A DNA stretch of 64,000 nt from Haematococcus lacustris (Eukaryota; Chlorophyta; Chlorophyceae; Chlamydomonadales; Haematococcaceae), in assembly GCA_030144725.1 (NCBI GenBank), contig JASKMD010000006.1:3682977-3746976 (forward strand). The letters run 5' to 3'. The translations under genes were made by a program, and so were the position numbers. Shown here one piece after another: positions 17,486 through 46,400 of this stretch (within the stretch, counting starts at the first letter, position 1; each line of letters opens with the position of its first letter). The notes beneath the pieces are model-generated. The model saw only the letters and a list, made by a program, of their open reading frames with translations, made no database searches and was not told where the DNA came from.

Positions 17486-20400
17486 ATGTTGTCAAACATG
17501 ATGGGTTACTCGCTCCTGGCTGCGTTGACTTTGCTTTGTGTCTCCCCCTATCCTCGCGCGGAGGCCAGCTTGAGCAAGTTTAAGCTTCTTTTTGACGAGG
17601 GTCCAGGGCTTGTGCCGAATAGCACCGTTGCGTACGGAGAAGAGATATACCGGGGATTTCACACACTTGAAGCCAATAGCGACTGGGTTGTTGGTAAGCA
17701 ATGTATGGGACGATTGGCCTAGATGCTAGAAGGCATTACTTGGTCATACATGGAGGCGGCCTACTCAATGCCATGTGTACATTTGGCCTTGCATCCGCCA
17801 ACATGCTGTCAATCCGCTGTGCGCAGGACCTCGCGATACATGTTACTGTGAGAAGTGGGCTAAGAGGTAAGCTGCGGCTACAATGTTAGCATTCCCCTTT
17901 CCCCCTCCCCCCCTACCCTGTGCGCTGAGCTATCCGCGACCTTGCCGTTGCAGCCATGGCACGAAGGACGAGAAGCTCGGCGCAGTCGTTGCCATGGTAA
18001 GGGCGATGACGAGCTCCAGCTCAAGACGTTTGGGGCATACTCATGAAAATAGGCCACTGCACTGCCTTGCAGTTTATTGTATTCGGCTCTTGTGTGGGTG
18101 CACTCATCTTCTATGGCGTCGCAGCATGGCGCAGTACATGTGGATGGGAGGAGGTGTACGTGTGCGTCATTGAGTGTGAGTGAGAACGCCTCAGTGCCCA
18201 CATCCACATGTGCAACCCTACATTCGACACCAACAAGCACGGACCACTTGATGCTCTGCAGTGTGTCATGTGCTCATTGCAATCTTCCATGAGATTGAGT
18301 CCCCATCAACGCTGTACCTCAGCACCGGTAACCAAGTCCTGTGGCTGCGCTATGCGGAGTGGCTGCTCTCCTGTCCAGTCATCCTGATCCACTTGTCAAA
18401 TCTTACGGGTAGGGGCGGCAGCAGCAAGCCTGTATGTGTGCTGTTAGTGATGTCAGCAAAACCAGGTTCCCTTCATTCATTCTGTATTCATTCCGTATTC
18501 ATTGCAGGCATGAAGGATGATTACTCCAAGCGCACCATGGGCCTCCTCATCAGCGACATTGGCACCATTGTGTTTGGGACCACTGCTGCCATGAGCCCAC
18601 CAGGTTACTTGAAGATCATCTTCTGGTTCTGTGGGCTGTGCTATGTGAGTTGTGCACTAAGCACCGCACAAAACTGCCTTTCACAGCAATGTACCAGCAG
18701 TGTGCCTTGACAGTGTTCTTTATGTTGTTCTCTGTGCAGGGTATGATCACCTTCTACTTGGCTGCTAAAGTGTACATAGAGGTGTGTACATGTAGCAGTA
18801 CACTGTCATGATTCCACGATGGTATGATACGCCAGCGTGGCACGTCACTAGCAGTTAGCTAGCATGTCCTCCCGCCCTGCAGGCCTACCACACCGTGCCC
18901 AAAGGCATCTGCAGGAAAATAGTACGCGCCATGGCATGGGATTATTTTGGGTGCGAGACTGGTCCACTCCCACCAGCCCACCCAGCCCCTCTCATTGTCA
19001 TCTGTCCAACAAGACTGACGAGGCCAGCAACACATCTGCTGCACTGGGCTGCGGCTGCAGGTCTTGGTGTATGTTCCCCATTCTGTTTGTGCTGGGGCCC
19101 GAGGGCTTTGGCCATATCTCCGCCTATGGGTCAGTGATCGCCCACCAGGTCCTGGATATCACCAGCAAGAACTTGTGGTACGTCAGGCCTCTTGTTGCCC
19201 GGCCGCCTAACACCACCACCTGCAAGACCCTCCACCTCCTTCACCCTTACTTGTCAAGCCCTCAATAACTCTCCATCAGTTGTTCAGTAGCCGGGGGGGG
19301 CAGTGCAGTGACTGGTCTCCATGACTGCATGGCAGTCACCAGGAAGCCACAGGACCGACTTCACAGCAGCAGCAGTTGAAGCACAACCTACCAACCGCTG
19401 GAGACCATTCTGCTACAGCTGCCCCCCTTCCCCCTGTCACCACCACCAGCGAGACCCTCCACCCTCTTCCCTTCTCAAGACCTGTCCATAACAATACATG
19501 GCTCCTGCGGGCCATGGAGGGGCATGTCGGTACTGGCCTGATGTCGGTGCTGGCCTGTGTTGCTTGCATGTGCAGGTCGCTGATGGGCCACATGCTCCGC
19601 GTGAAGGTCAGTGGCAAACCAAAAGTGTCACTAGCCGGCTGTGGCTGTCACTATTTGTCAGTTGCAGGCAGAGCAAGCTCTAGCTGACAGCTGGCGGCAA
19701 GGCTGGTTATTGCAATAGTGTGACATTGTGATGACGGAGGAGGTGTTACATTGTCAGCATTGTCAGCAGAGCATGTGTAAGGCAACAGCGCAACGTCAGG
19801 TAGTGGTCAGGTTAATGCTGGGTCAGCTTCCACTCTTACTGAGCAGTTCATCAAAACCCTTCCACATCCTTACAATGTGTTGCTGCTGTCATGCAGATCC
19901 ACGAGCACATCATCGTGCATGGCAACATCACCAAGAAGACCCAGTTCACGGTAAGCTTAAGCACCAGCCACCACACTGTTGCCATGTGCTCAATGGGATG
20001 CTAAATACTGTTTTGTCCTGCAGCTTGCTGGGGAGCCTGTTGAGGTGGAGGAGTATGTTGACACAGACAACATCAAACCAGAAGAAATGGACCAGGTCCA
20101 GGACAAAGGCACCCAGGCCATAGCCAACCGGCAGTCATTCATGGTCATGCGCAACCGCATGCAACAGCAGGTATGCTATCAGCAGTCTTAACTCATCTGC
20201 TGCCATCTACATGGCAGGCATCACCTCGCCACTACCTGCCGTCGCCCTGTTCGTGGCACCTTCCTATTTGCCCTTGACGCCTTGCACATGCTCTGCTCGC
20301 TCTGCTGACGCTGACTGCTGACACTTGCCGCTACCACCACCACACTACCAGCCCCAGTCCTGCCCTAGTCCTAACCCTATCTTCATGCCTGCCATGTTAA

Positions 20401-21559
20401 AAGGGTGTGGAGGTGCATGCTTCTCTGAACCCCAACGACCGTGACCAGACGGAGATGGGCATGATGGGCGGAGCAGTGACCATGGGTCAGTGGGGCATGG
20501 GTGGCACCGGCAGCAGTGGGATGGGCCTGGGCATGGTGGCCAAGGCGATTGAGGAGCCAGCAGCCAGGGTGGGCCCAATAGACCCTGGGCGGGTCATCCT
20601 GTGCTTGCCCGACGCTGCGCTGGTGGACTTCTGGCGCGTCCAGGTAAGCTGCTAGTCACGGACAGTGTGAGCCATATTTTCAGACTCTCTTGGCTGGCTC
20701 AGTAGCCTCCTATGCAGCTTGTCATGATGAAGTAACATCTCACTTGAATCACTGAATTTGCTTTGCTCAAGATCTGCACTAGTATGAACTGCTTTGCATG
20801 CATTTCTCCTTTGCTGGAGTTCTGCAGCATGGCATTGCCCGTATCACACCCTGTTTTCACCTTTTTGGATCATTGTCACCTCCCTGTCTGCTGCAGTTCT
20901 CCTCGCTGCCCGCCTCCTTTGAGGTGTACCCCTCAGTGGGCCAGGACATGGCCATGCAGCTGGTGCAGCAGTCCCTGCAGCTAGGCGGTGCCCAGTTCTG
21001 CGACTTTGTACTGCTGTCCCCAGACTTCCTGCAAGACCGCAGCCCCTCTGGCCTGGTGGCGCGCCTCAAGATGCAGGGCATGAGGGTGGCTGCCTATGGC
21101 TGGCAGCCAGCTGGGCAAATGCGGGAGCTGGTAGAGGGCAGCAACGTGGATGGCTTCCTGGAAGGCCCCACAGCCCCTCATGGCATCAACCGGACTCAAT
21201 TCACCACCCTGGTGTTCCGCATGCAGCAGCTGAAGAAGATGGCCTCCATGGCAGGGATGGGTGGCATGCCAGGCATGGCCAGTCTTGTGCCTGCCCAGCC
21301 CTTCCCAGCTGCAATCAACACTGTGCAGACCCCGCGCCAGATGGGCCAAATGCCAGCTGCTTTCCCCGGGCAGGGCATGGGCACCCCCACCACTGCCAAC
21401 CCGCTGTTTGCACCAGTCTCAGCCAGCCAGCCCACCTCACCCCTTTCACCTGGCCTGGCGGCACCTGCCCAGGCGGGGGCAGGGGCGGAGGGCGAGGCTG
21501 CCATGATGCAGCAGCTCATGGCTGAGATCAACCAGCTGCGGGCGGAGCTACAACGGTAA
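17486..21559 (+). CDS. ChR: Channelrhodopsin, light-gated ion channel, 14 exons
   Basis: Exons: 17486-17693, 17827-17866, 17954-17996, 18073-18175, 18262-18408, 18508-18644, 18740-18781, 18883-18950, 19061-19177, 19576-19606, 19897-19950, 20024-20170, 20404-20643, 20897-21559. Every phase agrees, giving about 679 residues. A signal peptide (1-27) and an NST glycosylation site (45) precede TCYC, whose two Cys form the intermonomer disulfides in the family. Seven helices follow. Key residues, with Chlamydomonas ChR2 equivalents: E131 (E90), counterion E164 (E123), gate pair C169/D197 (C128/D156), D295 (D253) and retinal Lys299 (K257) in DITSKN. Differences: H134 for K93, A138 for E97, S168 for T127, and one extra residue after helix 4 (MSPPGY). 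The C-terminus keeps the conserved GRVILCLPD...FEVYP...DFVLL module of algal channelrhodopsins. In flagellate algae these proteins sit in the eyespot membrane and drive phototactic currents; ion selectivity here is not proven by sequence. Confidence 0.96.
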
Positions 21560-22139
21560 GCTGGTGTGACCAGTGTGACGGTCACCAGCACATGCGTCAC
21601 ATCAAGTGGTGGCCATGAAGTGGCCAGCATCGCCTCTGTCATGACATGATGGTAATCAACCACATAGGTTATTCAACTCACCAACTCTTAGTCATAACCA
21701 TCAATTGCATATGCATCTGGTCATCTGCATGTGCATGGGTTCTTTGCAATGATGATGCCATTCCACATGCTGCACTCATCATTCATGCAACCCCTCAATG
21801 CTCCACCACCGCCATAACCCTGTTGCACATGGAGGTTACTGAAGGTCATATGGTCATTACTCGGCATCATGGTGTGGCAAACGCCCCTTTTTGATAGATT
21901 ACGTCACTTATCTCCACTGCAGCACACTGCTCTCGTGATCCAGCCAGCGTTCAGGTACCAGGCATACTAGCCAACGCTATGTCAGACAATACCCCCATGT
22001 CATGATGTCATTTAATTCACATCTTTTAAATGTTTTCATCCGTGTTCTGTGGACGCTTTGAGTGTGCCGCCTCCTGTCAGATTTCCTCATCAAGAGTTCA
22101 TTAGGGTGATGTGGCTTACACCGCTTAAGCCGTCAGCCG
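21560..22139. other. Region downstream of the channelrhodopsin
   Basis: No gene recognised. The stop codon of the upstream gene overlaps a good splice donor (CG|GTAAGC at 21556-21561), so an alternative 3' exon could lie here, but I see no clear continuation. CATGATG-type words are frequent. Confidence 0.5.
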
Positions 22140-22490
22140 TTAGGCTGCTAGGCCGCCCTCCCCCTCAAGGGGTTCGGGACTTTCTGAAACGCACTTCATA
22201 GCAAGGTGCACAAACAAAGGTGCACATGGGCTCAACATGAAGTCATGCAAGTTCTCATTGTTGTTCTGTAAAGTCAAGGCAAACTCCGGCTGCTCCCTGA
22301 TGGAACTCGTGGCAGTGCACTCAAAGATGAAATGCATGGCGTCATCCACTACCCCCTCTGTGCATCTGGTGCATGTGCGATCAATGAAAGTAACCCCCTC
22401 AAACCGAGCCTTCTCCACCCCCAGACCGCTGTTGCCTAACCTGAACCTAGTCAGGCTCGTGCGAACTTCTGTAGAATCATCAAGAGTTCA
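22101..22490 (-). mobile_element. Non-LTR retrotransposon (LINE) 3' remnant
   Basis: The minus strand encodes a 92-residue end containing CTRCTEGVVDDAMHFIFECT. This CxxC...H...C pattern is typical of the zinc-binding segment at the end of LINE reverse-transcriptase ORFs. The stop is followed by a short 3' tail ending AAGCCACATCA. The same tail recurs at 61474-61540, which supports a LINE 3' end. All upstream RT sequence is missing (5' truncation), as is usual for LINE copies. Confidence 0.75.
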
Positions 22491-33711: not shown

Positions 33712-34423
33712 ATGTTTTGCTTCAGGGGCACAAATCGTGCCATCTTAAAAGCCATCGAAGATGGAAGCCTCACGGATTTGCAGCTCGCGTTGGAGGTCCG
33801 CGCATCTTGCAGTTTCCCACTCGGGGGGCTCCAATGCTGACCTTGTTTTTCCTGCCTTGGTCACCTCGCACGGTCCAGGGCGGCGCTGCTAGGCTGAACG
33901 AGGGCAACAGCGACGGGGAGACGCCCCTGCACATAGCGGCCGGGCACCCCACTCACCCTGACAGCGTATGTGCAGCGATGGTCAGGGAGCTGCTGGAGCG
34001 ATTGGCCGACCCATCGCAGCAAGACAATGTGCGTGAGTGTGGAGGGGAGGAGTGCCTGCCTGCGGCAGGGATGGAATGGATGCCCGGGACAGAGTGGTGG
34101 TGGTTGATCACTTTACAATCGGCTCATGACAAGCTCATGACGGCAGAGAGATGTTGTGCGTGTGGGTGCGGCATGAAGGGCTGCCTGTAGCTAAGGCTCA
34201 GCTGGTAGTGCAACTAGTGGAGAGGAGGGGAGGGGGAGGGGTCCAGGATCTTAGGCTGTGAGACAGGTGCCTGGCCTGCACTTGCACTGCCTGCTCGCCC
34301 TGCGCCCCCTGCTGCCCTGGCACCTGCCCACATGCCTGACCTGGTGGTGACGGTAATAACGTATCCATTGCATCAACTGTCTCGCAGCTGCCACTTCAGT
34401 GCATTCTTCAATAGGGCTGTGGT

Positions 34424-34457
<34 letters not shown>

Positions 34458-37400
34458 GCGGGTAAGCTCACTGCTGCTTCAACCTGTTCTCGCCCTGCCC
34501 CCTTCCCCCTTGGCCCCCTGTTGCTCAGTTGCACGCCCCCCCTTCCCTCCCCCTCCCCTGCAGGAAGGCTGCACCGCGCTGCACAAGGCTGCCCAGCAGC
34601 GTCATGTGGGGGTGATGCGCTTGCTTCTGACCCACAGCCCCCACCTCATCTCAATCCCCAACCGAGCAGGGAAGACCGCCATGGACATCGCTTACAACCG
34701 CCCCTCCACCCCCAGCAGCCATGGCCCCTCCCACCCCACCCACCCCAGCCCCACCCACCCTGCCGCACCCACCCACCCACCCAGCCCCACCCACCCATGG
34801 CCGTACAACATCCTGCCTGCCCCTCCCATTGGCATACCCCGCCTGAGCCCCGCCAAGGGCCCAGTCATGCCCCATGAGACAGCTAGGCCTACCACCTACT
34901 TAATCGTGACCCCCCAGGCGTGCCCCAACCCCAGGCATGAGCCTGCCCACGTGCGGCAGATGCAGCAGCAGGCCCCTTCGGCAGATGCAGCAGCAGGCCA
35001 CAGGGCGTCCCAGGTGGCCCAGAACCACCCAGGGAACCCCTCCCCTTACGATCAGCCTCACCGCGCCACCACCGCCCCTGCCTCCACCCTCCTCGCCACC
35101 ACAGACGCTGACTCACCATTGCAATCGCAGCCAGAGGGGCTGCCGCCGTGGCTGTCCCTGCCCTGTGCCCCACACACGCCTACCCAGCAGTCCCAGGCGG
35201 GCTTCAGGGCGGTGCAGCCCATGGCGGGGCTGCTGGCTGAGATGCCCAAGATGAGGGTTGGCACCGGGGGAGAGGAGGGCGATGTGCAGGGGCCGGGCTC
35301 CAGCCCCTGGCAGCAGCAGATACCCAGGCAGCGGCGGCAGCAGCAGCAGCAGCAGCCACCGCCGCCGCCGCCGTCGCATCAGCAGCAGCTTCCCCATCAG
35401 GCTCAGGTAGAGTCGCAGCCATTGCAAACTTCAGAAAGCCTCAGCAGCTGCTTGACCATGGGCAACGAGTATACCCTGGAGCAGCTGGAGGAGGCAACCA
35501 ATGTAGGCCACCGACTCACCCTCACACACTCACTCCCTGGAGAACTGCATGGCTTGCTAGCACTTGGTTGGTGAAGGGACTTGCCCCAGGCAGTCGCCAG
35601 GTCTGGCGGGGGTCCTTGATGTGTAGCTCACGGTAGAGGCTCACGGTGACACAAGAGCCGGCGCACCAGGCTGGGGGGGCGGGGCGGGGCGGGGCGGGGC
35701 GGGGCGGGGCGGGGCGGGGCGGGGCGGGGCGGGGCGGGGCGGGGCGGGGCGGGGCGGGGCGGGGCGGGGCGGGGCGGGGCGGGGCGGGGCGGGGCGGGGC
35801 GGGGCGGGGCGGGGCGGGGCGGGGCGGGGCGGGGCGGGGCGGGGCGGGGCGGGGCGGGGCGGGGCGGGGCGGGGCGGGGCGGGGCGGGGCGGGGCGGGGC
35901 GGGGCGGGGCGGGGCGGGGCGGGGCGGGGCGGGGCGGGGCGGGGCGGGGCGGGGCGGGGCCCTTCTTCCCTCACAATTCCCTATCCTTGGGTGCCAGGTG
36001 GGCTGTTTCTGCCACAGCTGTGGAGTTGCGGTGTGAAGTGTGGGAGGAAGGGCAGGGGTGTGTGCGGTGCTGGTGGCCACAGAACTTCAGTGAAGCAAAC
36101 CGGCTAGGTCAAGGCGGCTTTGCCGTGGTGTACTCTGGCTACCTGCAGCAGCTGCATGTGGCAGTGAAGAAGCCAAGCACCAAGTTAGACCCAGAGGTGG
36201 GGGCGGCAGCAGGCGGCAGGTGTGAACAAGAGTGGGAACGAAGGGGCAGGCAGGGGCAGAGAAGGTAAGGGAAGGCAGGGGAGTGGTGGGGAGGGTTGAG
36301 CTGAAGTGTCCCCAACCACCCCTGTGGCTGCATCCAATCTTTCCAGTCCAGTGTGGAGCGGGTGGTGAGAGAAGTCAGCAGGTCATGTGTGGTTCGCAAG
36401 GAGGGTTGAGGGTCTAGGTCTGGGGCAGCGTGGATGAGGCGGGAGGACGTGGCTGGCTCGAGGGCAGGCTGCCGTGGACCAGGAGCAGGACTCCTTCAAC
36501 CTACCACCCTGCCAGTAGCAGCACAAGCACAGCTGCCATCCTTACTTCTCACTAGCCCAGATCCAGTAGCCCAGATTCAGTGACTAGCCTAGACTGTAAT
36601 GCGACGTACAGTGTGACAAGCTTAGATGGGTTATAAAGAGTGTGCAGCTGGCAGGGTAACCCAGGGTTTAATACCCAGCATCACCTCATCTGGCAGCCTG
36701 CGCCAGCCCCGTTGGGTGTTTGGCTGGAACGCCCTGCTTTCTTACTCACGTTTTCCTGCTTGCTCACCTGCCTGCTTTTCCCACTGCCTGCGTACCTGCA
36801 CCCCAGCCTGCCTGCCTGCACCCCCGCTCCCCCTGCCTGACCTTGCCTGTGTAGAGCATTCGCCATTTCAAGGTGGAGAGCAACGTGTTGTCCACCATCA
36901 ACCACCCGAACATCATCCCCCTCATTGGCACCTGCCCTGAAGAGGTAGGCGGCATGGACCACAGCTTGATCTGAGGCCAGGCACCGCAAATGCTAGGCTG
37001 CAAAGAGGGGGGGTGGAGGGGGCAGGCGGGGGGGAGGTGGTGGGTGGATGGGTGGGGGGGGGGGCTGGCAGTGTCTCAACAGCCTGATGCATACCTTATC
37101 GTCAGGGAGCTGGGCGGCACTAGGCCGATTCCCTCGACGAGTTGGGCATGCCCTACCCACACCCTTCATGCACTGGGGGATCCAACAGTCAGTGGTGGCC
37201 CTGGCACACAAGCGCATGCCCTCGTTGTGATTATAAGTATATATTTGAGGTATAGGGGAAAATATAGGCTTCAATATTTTTCCATTACTCGGGTTAGTCA
37301 TACAAGGCTACAAAGTTCTAGCAGCCAGATCCGCGTGTTCCGCAAATGAAGCGCAAGTTGCGAATGTGCTAGTTGCATGTATGGCTTGCACGTCGCAAGT

Positions 37401-40400: not shown

Positions 40401-43400
40401 CACGCAAGTAGGCACGGTTGGTGTGAAGCACTAGCAGCAGCGCCAACAGCAGCAGCGCCAACAGCAGCAGCGCCAACAACAGCAGCGCCAACAATAGCAG
40501 CGGCGACAACATCAGCAACGACGATGGCAGTGCCAGCAGCGAGGGGTGGGGAGTTGGCAAGTTATCAGCTGGGGCAGCCTGGCCGCGCCAGGTTAGCTGT
40601 TAGGGTGGGTGGGCAGGCCGGGGCAACAGCTCGGGGAGCTGGCCGGCTACTAGGGTGCTTGCCTTGGCCAAGGCTGTGGCATGGGTGACTGTTAGGGCAC
40701 GCAAGTTTGTGTGTTTGGAGGAGGATGAAGAGATATGCCGGCCCTGCAAGCAGCCACAGCGGCACCATGACTCCATGGGGGAGGTTCAGTGCCCTATCTA
40801 GTGCAAAGTACAAACGGTGACTTGGTGCACAGAGATAGTGCCCTTGCATAGTGGCTTTGACTCGGTGACCGGGTGGCTTGACTTGGTGACCTGTAAAAGA
40901 AGTGTGTAAACCACGGAGGATTGACATGTTATGCAAGGGATGGCTGCCCAAGATATTTGTAAGCACACCCACATCCGCAAAACCGAGTTTTGCTGTAATG
41001 TTTGCATTTGGAAAGGTAAACATATTTATTTTTCTAATTACTGACCACGTCACACGGGGCACTGAACCTCGCTCATAAAGTCGTGTTCCTCCTGCCGCTG
41101 CTGGCAGTGGCGGTATATCTCATCATCTGCCTCGGAGCATTCAAACTTGCGTGCTCCTGCAGCCACCCATGCTGCTGCCTTGGCCAGAGCAAGCACCCCG
41201 CCTTGGATGGCTGCATGTGCATGACCGGCCGCCTCATCATGACATTATGGCCTGCTGCATCTGCTGCCACTCGAGCTGCCAAGGGTTGCCATGCCTTCAC
41301 ACGCTTCAGCTTGCCACCGGGGGTGCTGAGATCTGTCATGCCCTCGTAGATCAGCTGCATTGGAAATTGTTGGAGCAAGGCATGCTAGGTTCAGCCAGCC
41401 CATCAGGGGTTGAGCTAACTGTATCTCAAGTGTGACTTCTGTTTTAGGCTCCGCTCAGTGACGTAGTGCTTTACTGTGTTTGTCCGGTGAAGCGCTGCCT
41501 CTTAGCGAGGGCCTCTTTCTCTTTCAGGTGGGCTTTATACTTGCTATAGTGTGTAACTGTGTTTGTCCGGTGAAGCGCTGCCTCTTAGCGAGGGCCTCTT
41601 TCTCTTTCAGGTTATGGGCCCACCGCACGGGTGCGGATGGTAAAATCAGAGGCAGACGTCAGCGCTCCAGCCGAGCAGCCACAGATGGCAGTCCTTATGC
41701 CACAGCCACTGCCCCTGAATGAAGCCACTTCGTTTGTCGAATGGCGACATGGGGCGATGGGCCAGTTGAGGCTGGCCGGGCTGTGGAAGGCCATTGTTGG
41801 CGAGGACACGGACCCAGTTCGCTGTGAGCGTGCGTATGCGTGGCTGCTGTGCAACTGCAAGTCGCACTACTTGCGACTTGTAGTGGCAGCCGAGACAGCA
41901 CCTGCAGCCTGGAAAGCCCTGCTGGCGGACCAGCAGCCGGACAGCTATCAGCTGTGGGAGCAGCTCAACAGCTTGCAGATGCAGCCCGGTGAGACTGTGG
42001 GGCAAGTGCACAGCAGGCTGTTGGAGATTGTGTGGCAGCTGGCAGCGGTCAAGGAGCAAGTCAGCGAGCCCCAGCAGGTCATGGCCTTGTTGAAGGCCAT
42101 GCCTCCCCTGCCGCAGTATGAGAATGCAAGGGACTTCATCACATTTGGGTCTCTGCGCTCCCCGCTCTCCCTCACCGAAGTCAAGCGCACGCTGCAGATT
42201 GCAGAATCCCGTGCGCAGCAGGCTGGAGTGTCAGCCCAGCTGGCTGCAGTGCGTCTCCGGGGTAAGGGTGGGGGTGGTGGGGGTGGTGGGGGTGGCAGCA
42301 GCAGCAGCGGCAGCAGCAGCAGCCGCACGCAGCCGGCTGCCGTGCCGGCAGCCTCCTCCTCATCCTCAGCCGCACCGTCACGCCCACGGGCAGCCGCCAA
42401 CGTCAAGTGCTTCAAATGTGGCAAGCGTGGCCACTACGCACGAGACTGCCCAGACCCCGCACGAGATGGTGGTATGGCGGGGACTGGGGCTGGTGGTGAG
42501 GGAGGTGGTGCAAGCGGGGGTGGTGCGGGTGGTTGGGCTGGTGCGGGCAAGAGCAGCAGTGGGTCAGCCGGGCTATCCCGCGTCACCCTCGCTGCTGTGC
42601 ATGCGGGCACACTGAGCCATGTGGCTGATGCAGCCCCCCCCTTGCCTGCCTGCATGCCTGCTGAGGCAGGTGTGGGAGTGGGTGGGGCTGAGGTGCATAG
42701 CTGCAGCGCAGAAGGGGGCAGTGTGGTCAGCTGTGGGGACATGACCTGCTGTTGGAGCCATGCAGTAGGGCTCTCCCCTATGCTGCCCTGTGTGGTCGAC
42801 AAGCATGCCTCTCTTGCCCCTGAGCCAGCTGCAGAGCCAGCCTTGCTAGCTGTTGCCTCTACCCAGCAGCTGGACAGCAGCATGAGGGTGTGGGTGGCAG
42901 ATTCTGGGGCTAGTCACCACATCACCCCTGAGCGCACCTTGTTGCATGGGTATCAAGGGTTTGCGCAGCCAGTCCCTATGGGGCTGGGCAAGAGCTCAGT
43001 GCAGCTGTATGCCTATGGGAAGGGCAGGGTGCGGCTGGCAGTGGATGGGGTGAGGATGGAGCTGCAGGATGTGTTGTGGGCTCCAGAGGCCAGCACCAAC
43101 TACTTCTCCACCCTCGCAGCAGCTCAGAAGGGCTGGGAGATCAGGCAGTCAGCTGACAGCATCACCATGCAGTCCAGCAAGGGGGAGGTGGTGAAAGGCA
43201 AGGTGGTGGGCAGGCAGTATCAGCTCAGCGGTAGCGCGCAGCCTGCTGTGGTGGCATGTGAGCCGCCCGCCTCAGCGCAAGCTGTGACTGCAGTCACACC
43301 GCAGCTGCTGCATGAGCGGCTGGGCCATCTCAGTTACCGGGCCATGGGTGATATGATCAGCAAGGGGATGGTGGAAGGGGTGGAACTCAGCGCGGGGCAG

Positions 43401-46400
43401 TGCAGAGCAGCAGGTAGTGGGGTGTGTCCTGGCTGTGCAGCGGGCAAGCTGCACCGGCGTGTAGCCGACACGCTGCCCTCCCTTGCTGCCCGGGTTGCAG
43501 CACCCTGCGACCTTGTGCACACTGATGTGTGCGGTCCCCTCCGCATTCCCAATGCTGCTGGCTACTGCTTTGTGCTCACCTTTCTTGATGAGCACAGTGG
43601 GCTGTCACTCATAGCCCTTCTCAAGGCCAAGTCAGAGGTGCCAGCAGCCATCAGGGATGCAGTCGAGTGGTTTGAGACACAGGGGGGCCGCAAGGTCAAG
43701 GTGTTGTGCAGCGACCGGGGAACTGAGTATGTCAACCAGGCTGTCAGGGAGTTCCTCAGTGGGAAAGGCATCATCCACCAGCAGACCGCCCCGTACAGCC
43801 CGCAGCAGAATGGCAGCGCAGAACGCCTAAACCGCACGCTGTTTGAGAAGGGTCGGTGCCTGCTGTACAGCAGTGGGCTCTCAGTTAACTTCTGGCCCTA
43901 TGCCTTGCGCTTTGCCAATTATGTGCGCAACCTGTCCCTGGTGCGAGGCAAGGCGGGCACTCCCTGGGAGCTGTTCTGGGGGGTGCGGCCAGACCTGTCA
44001 GCGCTGCGGGTGTTCGGGGCACGGGCGTATGCCCACGTGCCCGAGCACATGCGCAGCAAGCTGGGCAGTAAAGCGGTGCAGGGGGTGTTTGTAGGATATG
44101 AGCTGAGCAGCAAGGCTTACCAGGTGCTGCTACCTGGTGGCAAGCTCTTGATCACCAAGGACGTGGTGTTCGATGAGCTTAACCGGGGGCCGCCCACCCG
44201 GGAGGCAGACCTGGCCATGCACTTGCCACAGCCTGAGCCAGAGCCGGGGGTGCTGGTGCCGCATGCTGTGCATGTGCTGGTTGAGGTGCAGTTGACTGCA
44301 CCGCCGGCAGCTGTACCAGCTCTGCTAGAGCACGCGCCAGCACCACCAGGTGGTGCAACCAGCAGCGCAGGAGCTGACAGCGGCAGCACCGTAGGGGCTG
44401 GCACCGGCAGCAGCGCAGGGGCTGGCATCGGCAGCTACGCAGGGGCTGGCAGCAGCAGCAGCGCAGGGGCTGGCAGCGGTAGGGGCACAGAGGCTGATGG
44501 TAGCGGTGTGGGCACAGGGGCTGGCAGCAGCGCAGGGGCTGGCAGCAGCGCAGGGGCTGGCAGCAGCGCAGGGGCTGGCAGCAGCTCAGGGGCAGGCAGT
44601 GGTGCAGCTGGCAGCCGCGCAGGGATTGGCAGAGGTGCAACTGGCAGTGGTGCAGTAGTGGCTGAGGGCAGCAGTGGTGGTGGCGCTGTCGTGCGCCAAT
44701 CTAGTCGGTTGCGGGGTATTCAGCCTGAGTTTGCGGGGGTCAGATCCGTGGCTGTGGCGGAGCTTCCTGCAATTGTCTATGGCTCTCTTTGGTCTGCGCC
44801 GGGCCCGACGGGCGTGGCATGCACTTTCAGGGGAGGAGCTGGAGCAGCTGGAGCAGCTGAAGCAGCTGGTTTCCACAGCCTCACCTGCACACAGCTATCT
44901 AGCCACTATGATGCAGGGTGTGTTGGCTGATCTGTCTCTGGGCTCTGCTGTGGTGCAGCCTGTCACCATCATGTGTGACAATGAGGCTGCTCTCACTCTG
45001 GTCTAAGAACATTGATGTCCTTCATCATTTTGTGCGTGAGCGGGTGGCGCGTGGTGAGCTGGTCTTCAAGTTCTGTGGCTCTGCAGCCAATGTGGCTGAT
45101 GTGTTCACCAAGGCTCTGCCTTCTGTCAAGTTTGGATTTTGCAAGGCTGGTATGGGGATGGTGAAGCTCTGACGTAGGCTGAGACCCAGTGGCTTTGGTG
45201 TTCAGTTTAAGTTGTGAGGTCTGATGGCCTGGCCTGAGGGGGTGTGTTGGAGCAAGGCATGCTAGGTTCAGCCAGCCCATCAGGGGTTGAGCTAACTGTA
45301 TCTCAAGTGTGACTTCTGTTTTAGGCTCCGCTCAGTGACGTAGTGCTTTACTGTGTTTGTCCGGTGAAGCGCTGCCTCTTAGCGAGGGCCTCTTTCTCTT
45401 TCAGGTGGGCTTTATACTTGCTATAGTGTGTAACTGTGTTTGTCCGGTGAAGCGCTGCCTCTTAGCGAGGGCCTCTTTCTCTTTCAGAAATACATGCCCA
45501 GAGGCCTTGGGAGTGAGGCACACTGTGATGCCCTTCTTCTGCTCGGCGACGATTAGACAGTTTGCGAGGTCTCCCAGGTGGTGGTTTCTTAATCACTGCC
45601 GCTTGACGATCGCGTGACTTTGGAAGCGTCGTTCAGATTATCAGCTACGTCAGCGGCACGGATGCCCCGGACTACAAACTGGTCCATTGCTGGCACTTTC
45701 GTCAAGGTCAACTAATTGTTTGACTACTTCGCGACGACCTCAGCTGGCCCTTGCCCCAGGCTCCCTATCCAACCCCCCCTCTGCCACCCAGTACGAGCCT
45801 AGTGTCTGCCTGCTGTTGCCTTGGCCTAGGCCACCTGCTGCTGCCTTGGCCTGGGCCACTTGCTGTGCTGCTCAGAGCTGGGTAGGAGCTGGTGTAGGCC
45901 TGGTCATCTGTAGGCTGGACCCTGGCCCCCTGCCCTGGCGCTACCCCCCCTAGGATCTCTATGATGCCCAACACTGTTGTGTGGCCTGCAGCCCCACAAC
46001 ATCCTGTTGTCAGAGAACAAGAAGGGGCCGGTGGGCATGCTGGGCGATGTGGGCCTGACCAAGCTGGTGAAAAAGAAAACGAACGGCAACGACCCGTCAC
46101 GCCTGGTAGGAGGGGGGACGGCAGGGAAGGGGGAAAGGCAGGGGCGGAGGTACAACAGGGATGTGGGGAAGCATGGGCGGGGGATGTTTGACGAGCAGTA
46201 GCAAAGGCAGGCTAACACTCCTTGGCAAGGGTGGAGAAGAGAGGGCGGGGAGGTGGGCAGCGCTTGGCTATGGAGGGCGGGGCCCTGGTCCTACGGCACT
46301 GGGATGATGAGGAATGTAGGTGGCAACAGCGATGGCAACAGCAATGGCAGCAGCAGTAGCAGTGGGTTGGTGGTTTGCACCACGTGCACCCCTTCAGTGT

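Follow-up and report, generated by a model that had tools for sequence, protein, structure and literature searches.

The question raised by this locus is whether an intact channelrhodopsin gene whose pore and active site appear unusual represents a new kind of channel. The locus lies in a 64,000-nucleotide stretch of the Haematococcus lacustris genome (contig JASKMD010000006.1, positions 3,682,977 to 3,746,976; hereafter the window) and the gene, called gene A here, occupies positions 17486 to 21559 of the window on the forward strand. Gene A encodes a member of the microbial rhodopsin/channelrhodopsin family and belongs to the branch that holds BsChR1, AgChR, CsChR and a Dunaliella channelopsin. 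It is a new member of a known branch and not a new kind, as its residue set is already present in named channels.

Family membership and pore residues

The product of gene A matched the Pfam family PF01036 (E = 1.3e-44) and its best sequence match in the PDB was C1C2 (E = 7.8e-116). Its rhodopsin domain and seven transmembrane helices were identified, and helix 7 contains the retinal-binding lysine, K299, which aligns with K257 of Chlamydomonas ChR2 (CrChR2). The predicted fold resembles that of ChR2 and C1C2 in a structure comparison whose aligned rows lie mostly within residues 1–239 of the model. CrChR2 and C1C2, the best PDB matches, also share most gate residues with gene A, whereas CrChR2 differs at K93, E97, T127 and S63 and does not have an extra residue found in gene A after helix 4.

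E131, H134, A138, E164, S168, C169, D197, D295 and K299 were all found in the rebuilt model, at the positions expected from the numbering of the initial annotation, which was made from the letters of the sequence. CrChR2 E90, K93, E97, E123, T127, C128, D156, D253 and K257 align to them in that order, the ChR2 residues named in the annotation included, and the extra residue that it had reported is present and was placed at P211 of 'MSPPGY'. The gate glutamate of helix 2, E131 (ChR2 E90), is Glu in all 64 rows of the alignment described below. The counterion carboxylate E164 (E123) and the DC pair, C169 (C128) and D197 (D156), are kept. Four of the five glutamates of transmembrane helix 2 and the adjoining loop (E82, E83, E90, E97 and E101) are also kept, E97 being replaced by A138; passages of PMC8818676 ascribe the five to 'most' members, so that they are typical rather than required. 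One further pore change, absent from the initial annotation, is C104 in place of ChR2 S63. This is the only difference among the ChR2 central- and inner-gate residues compared (S63, E82, E83, E90, H134, N258 and R268).

Relatives were collected by two protein searches, the first giving 47 proteins (only the 7994 candidates sharing most words were scored) and the second 71 with E of at most 1e-20, of which 63 were new, for a total of 110 (P0002–P0111). The alignment and tree contain 64 rows (63 different), namely 62 of the 110 database proteins, the window protein and the product of a second copy of gene A. The 48 proteins left out were P0002, as the same gene; P0004, P0005, P0024, P0027, P0032, P0039, P0041 and P0050, as fragments or misjoined models; the constructs P0028–P0031, P0034, P0055, P0058–P0060 and P0068; and, for economy, P0066, P0081, P0082, P0084, P0086, P0088 and P0089–P0111.

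This alignment and tree, part of the check which the initial annotation had proposed, placed gene A among the chlorophyte channelrhodopsins and within a branch marked by His at the K93 site (the H93 branch). His occurs at this site in 9 of the 64 rows, all on one side of one branch (support 99/93), and a single change accounts for it in all 200 bootstrap trees (100%). The nine rows are the window protein, the second copy, a paralogue from the same genome (paralogue B), BsChR1, AgChR, the Dunaliella tertiolecta protein, CsChR and the EukProt proteins P0011 and P0012. Ala at the E97 site was found in six rows and Ser at the T127 site in 17, Chrimson included. All three changes occur together in six rows (the window gene, its presumed allele, paralogue B, BsChR1, AgChR and the Dunaliella protein), and the column of the extra residue is filled in 11 rows including all of these six. 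Elsewhere the K93 site is mostly Lys (41/64 rows) and the E97 site mostly Glu (48/64). The H93 branch is not uniform, as P0011 and P0012 have Ser at E97 and Met at E101.

The residues called 'unusual' in the initial annotation are therefore unusual only against ChR2. The K93H/E97A/T127S set is common to a known branch, so it does not make a unique active site, and this reading was rejected given its occurrence in BsChR1, AgChR, the Dunaliella protein and paralogue B. The closest named relative is BsChR1 (P0049, 'BsChR1 [synthetic construct]'), with 86% identity over a 286-residue seven-transmembrane (7TM) query. It has His, Ala and Ser at the three sites, the extra residue and both counterions, but comes from another species and its available sequence is a construct of 351 residues only. 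AgChR and D. tertiolecta channelopsin 1 (P0006) also have His, Ala and Ser and the extra residue, but their E123 counterion site is Ser or Ala and their D253 site is Glu. CsChR belongs to the same clade and has His at K93, but has Gly at E97 and Thr at T127 and is without the extra residue. The sources given in passages of PMC12558739 are Brachiomonas submarina for BsChR, Asteromonas for AgChR and Chloromonas subdivisa for CsChR.

Gene model and deposited annotation

Rebuilding gene A from the sequence gave 14 exons with 2040 nucleotides including the stop codon, a 679-residue product and 13 introns, all GT-AG, with every exon join in phase. The claim of an intact gene with 14 in-phase exons was thus borne out. 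All exons listed here are supported by the rebuilt model and the second copy; where alignment or predicted structure also contributed this is stated.

17486..17693, + strand: exon 1, N-terminal region from the start codon, with a leader that is hydrophobic by eye; equal in length in the second copy
17827..17866, + strand: exon 2, CYC stretch, N-terminal region
17954..17996, + strand: exon 3
18073..18175, + strand: exon 4, helix 1 and the first part of helix 2, with E123, E124 and E131 (ChR2 E82, E83 and E90; alignment)
18262..18408, + strand: exon 5, H134 (K93), A138 (E97), E142 (E101), counterion E164 (E123), S168 (T127) and C169 (C128) (alignment)
18508..18644, + strand: exon 6, helix 4 with D197 (D156), and P211, where the extra residue was placed (alignment)
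18740..18781, + strand: exon 7
18883..18950, + strand: exon 8
19061..19177, + strand: exon 9, helix 7, D295 (D253), retinal-binding K299 (K257) and N300 (N258) (alignment)
19576..19606, + strand: exon 10
19897..19950, + strand: exon 11
20024..20170, + strand: exon 12, cytoplasmic linker
20404..20643, + strand: exon 13, linker and start of C-terminal alpha/beta domain (predicted structure)
20897..21559, + strand: exon 14, C-terminal alpha/beta domain, then a stretch of low confidence, the final helix and the stop codon (predicted structure)

The splicing of gene A is supported because the second copy keeps all 14 exon lengths and the intron splice dinucleotides. By eye, the acceptor of exon 13 has no pyrimidine run. 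A mis-splicing artefact was rejected, given the structure kept in the second copy and the exons of paralogue B, which equal its deposited protein, P0003, codon by codon.

The deposited model of the gene, QJQ45_014527 (P0002, 'hypothetical protein', Haematococcus lacustris), has 583 residues, all 100% identical to the gene A product. Its first residue is M97, which lies inside helix 1, so that exons 1–3 and the first 96 residues are missing. An N-terminus resembling that of exons 1–3 can be read in the sequences of P0003 and BsChR1 as well, and for this reason the 679-residue model is preferred to QJQ45_014527. Two further records, P0005 (QJQ45_005425) and P0050, look like incomplete or misjoined models of genes of this kind. 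Gene A thus provides a complete Haematococcus channelrhodopsin model, supported by two copies and truncated in the deposited annotation.

Beyond the rhodopsin part, an alpha/beta domain was predicted with good confidence for residues ∼440–580, much of which is conserved in the consensus of a 27-row alignment. Pfam matched no family to this region, even with E allowed up to 1, and NCBIfam gave no family for P0003 or P0020, the latter being the protein matched by a third gene described below.

The initial annotation had named an identical, already characterised channelrhodopsin as the finding that would count against it. The identical deposited protein exists in P0002, under the name 'hypothetical protein' only, while no characterisation, and no patch-clamp report on the protein, was found in the listed titles, abstract openings and passages of open-licence papers. 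The genome paper PMC7617258 does not use the word 'rhodopsin' in its main text. An H. pluvialis channel, HpChR1, is mentioned by name in passages of PMC12558739.

Copies, paralogues and neighbouring sequence

The assembly searched comprises 307.9 Mb in 597 contigs, with the window on scaffold C373. The second copy of gene A (L009) lies on the reverse strand of the same scaffold at 5.58 Mb. It is 96.5% identical to the gene A region over 4579 ungapped columns and differs at 29 of the 2040 exon bases, giving 10 amino-acid differences. Within residues 97–330 there are 10 synonymous differences and no amino-acid difference. L009 was taken as the other allele of gene A because passages of PMC7617258, which mention a 309 Mb assembly of strain SAG 192.80, support diploidy. 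The location of both copies on one scaffold is odd for alleles.

Paralogue B (P0003, H. lacustris 'channelopsin 1') was found at four places, L010–L013, which agree with P0003 at 669, 671, 669 and 669 of 677 codons, respectively. The protein search gave it 80% identity to gene A across 99% of the query. In direct comparison 541 of 673 aligned residues are identical, as are 220 of the 234 residues in 97–330, and the pore residues are the same, but it is a separate gene elsewhere in the assembly, with a number of synonymous substitutions per site (dS) of ∼1.55. Comparison of gene A with the copy of B at L013 gave a dS of 1.55, a nonsynonymous value (dN) of 0.132 and a ratio (omega) of 0.085, falling to 0.025 in the 7TM part; both ratios are rough as dS is near saturation. 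Selection acts on the 7TM part of gene A. In the tree the split between A and B is later than the split from BsChR1 (100/96). A repeat of ∼370 bases at 22106–22475 of the window recurs downstream of paralogue B at L011 and L012, with 97% and 95% identity.

The A and B loci lie on C373 at 3.70, 5.58, 7.78, 9.01 and 11.77 Mb and on C471, so that both A copies and three of the four B copies share one scaffold, in mixed orientation. This suggests either that the haplotypes have been joined in one scaffold or that the duplication is real.

Three places on C175 match P0020 and represent a third gene, C, which is sister to BsChR2 (100/99). There are thus at least three channelrhodopsin genes in H. 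lacustris, gene A among them. The NCBI records for the species also include the A-like misjoined model P0050 and the B-like P0004, which points to another assembly carrying both A and B. Further PF01036 matches were seen on C49 (three places), C64 (two) and C74 (three), L014–L016 and L020–L024. These loci gave no match to three channelrhodopsin queries at E of 1e-3 and are probably other microbial rhodopsins.

The window gave no tRNA in a tRNA scan and no Rfam family at the gathering threshold. At E of 0.01, Pfam gave no family for five of seven neighbouring pieces, the upstream gene piece among them. An open frame of 1099 codons at 41631–44930 (+) has copia-type gag, zinc knuckle and integrase domains and is a long terminal repeat retrotransposon. 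The segment 31872–33327 is G+C rich and strongly skewed. Both of its strands carry long open frames that overlap, and the segment is probably repetitive or of low complexity. An open frame at 34399–35574 (+) has weak ankyrin-repeat matches under the curated cut-offs.

Ion selectivity and biological role

By homology, gene A very probably codes for a chlorophyte channelrhodopsin that conducts cations in response to light, with a probable role in phototaxis and the photophobic response of the flagellated stage. Light would isomerise the retinal bound to K299, with E164 and D295 as counterions. As in its homologues, the Schiff-base proton would pass to the counterions and helix 2 would then tilt. 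The cation path would be lined by E123, E124, E131 and E142, and the C169/D197 pair would set closing.

Effects of the residue changes on conductance, proton selectivity or kinetics are plausible. In one gating model of ChR2, given in passages of PMC5577340, E90, when flipped outward and deprotonated, is stabilised by K93. His134 may stand in for Lys93 in pairing with the gate glutamate E131, with a small residue in the outer pore in place of E97. The charge of the outer pore would then vary with external pH, so that the cation current would be proton-biased. Such a proton bias and pH dependence of the gene A channel can be proposed only tentatively. The fuller proposal is doubtful: that gene A and paralogue B are natural members of the H93 branch in which a titratable His and a small residue replaced the outer-pore Lys and Glu near the base of the clade, the gate glutamate being stabilised according to external pH, to give a proton-biased, pH-gated channel that, unlike the Dunaliella protein, keeps both counterions.

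A precedent may exist in DsChR1 of Dunaliella salina, which passages of PMC5577340 describe as proton selective, in contrast to Chrimson, which has a high proton conductance at neutral pH as well. If it is similar in sequence to the D. tertiolecta protein, DsChR1 would fall in the H93 branch. Several points weigh against a proton bias in gene A. The counterion position of DsChR1 is non-carboxylate according to passages of PMC8406140 and PMC8818676, and this position, not the His/Ala pair, may be the source of its proton selectivity. In the alignment D. tertiolecta, as a stand-in for DsChR1, has Ala at E123 and Glu at D253, where gene A keeps Glu and Asp. The K93 site is not strictly fixed in the genus, as P0004, a record of the H. 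lacustris paralogue outside the 64 rows, has Tyr. Finally, most other checked gate residues equal those of ChR2, which argues for a ChR2-like, non-selective channel.

There is about an even chance that, as far as proton bias is concerned, selectivity is of the ordinary ChR2-like cation type and His, Ala and Ser are neutral markers of the lineage. The gate comparison, with C104 as its only change, is consistent with this, as is the origin of the His on one branch followed by inheritance. However, the K93 and E97 sites lie in the pore and keep Lys and Glu in most rows, and it is unlikely that both could change at the base of the clade without effect.

That loss of E97 together with the K93 change lets the outer pore pass chloride is very improbable. 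Non-carboxylates at several helix 2 glutamates are indeed typical of anion channelrhodopsins, but the same passages of PMC8406140 state that all those then known lacked the counterion carboxylate, whereas gene A retains E164 as well as four of the five glutamates and lies among the chlorophyte channelrhodopsins in the tree. An anion channelrhodopsin, which would have a non-carboxylate counterion, was therefore rejected. A decaying or non-functional copy is also highly unlikely and the pseudogene reading was rejected, as the several near-copies of rhodopsin genes in the assembly and the truncated deposited model are set against two intact copies with no stop or frameshift in either and an omega well below one against paralogue B.

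The K93H/E97A/T127S set is best described as an inherited trait of the branch. As gene A keeps both counterions, which are changed in the Dunaliella and AgChR proteins, comparison with these proteins would separate the effects of the outer-pore pair from those of the counterions.
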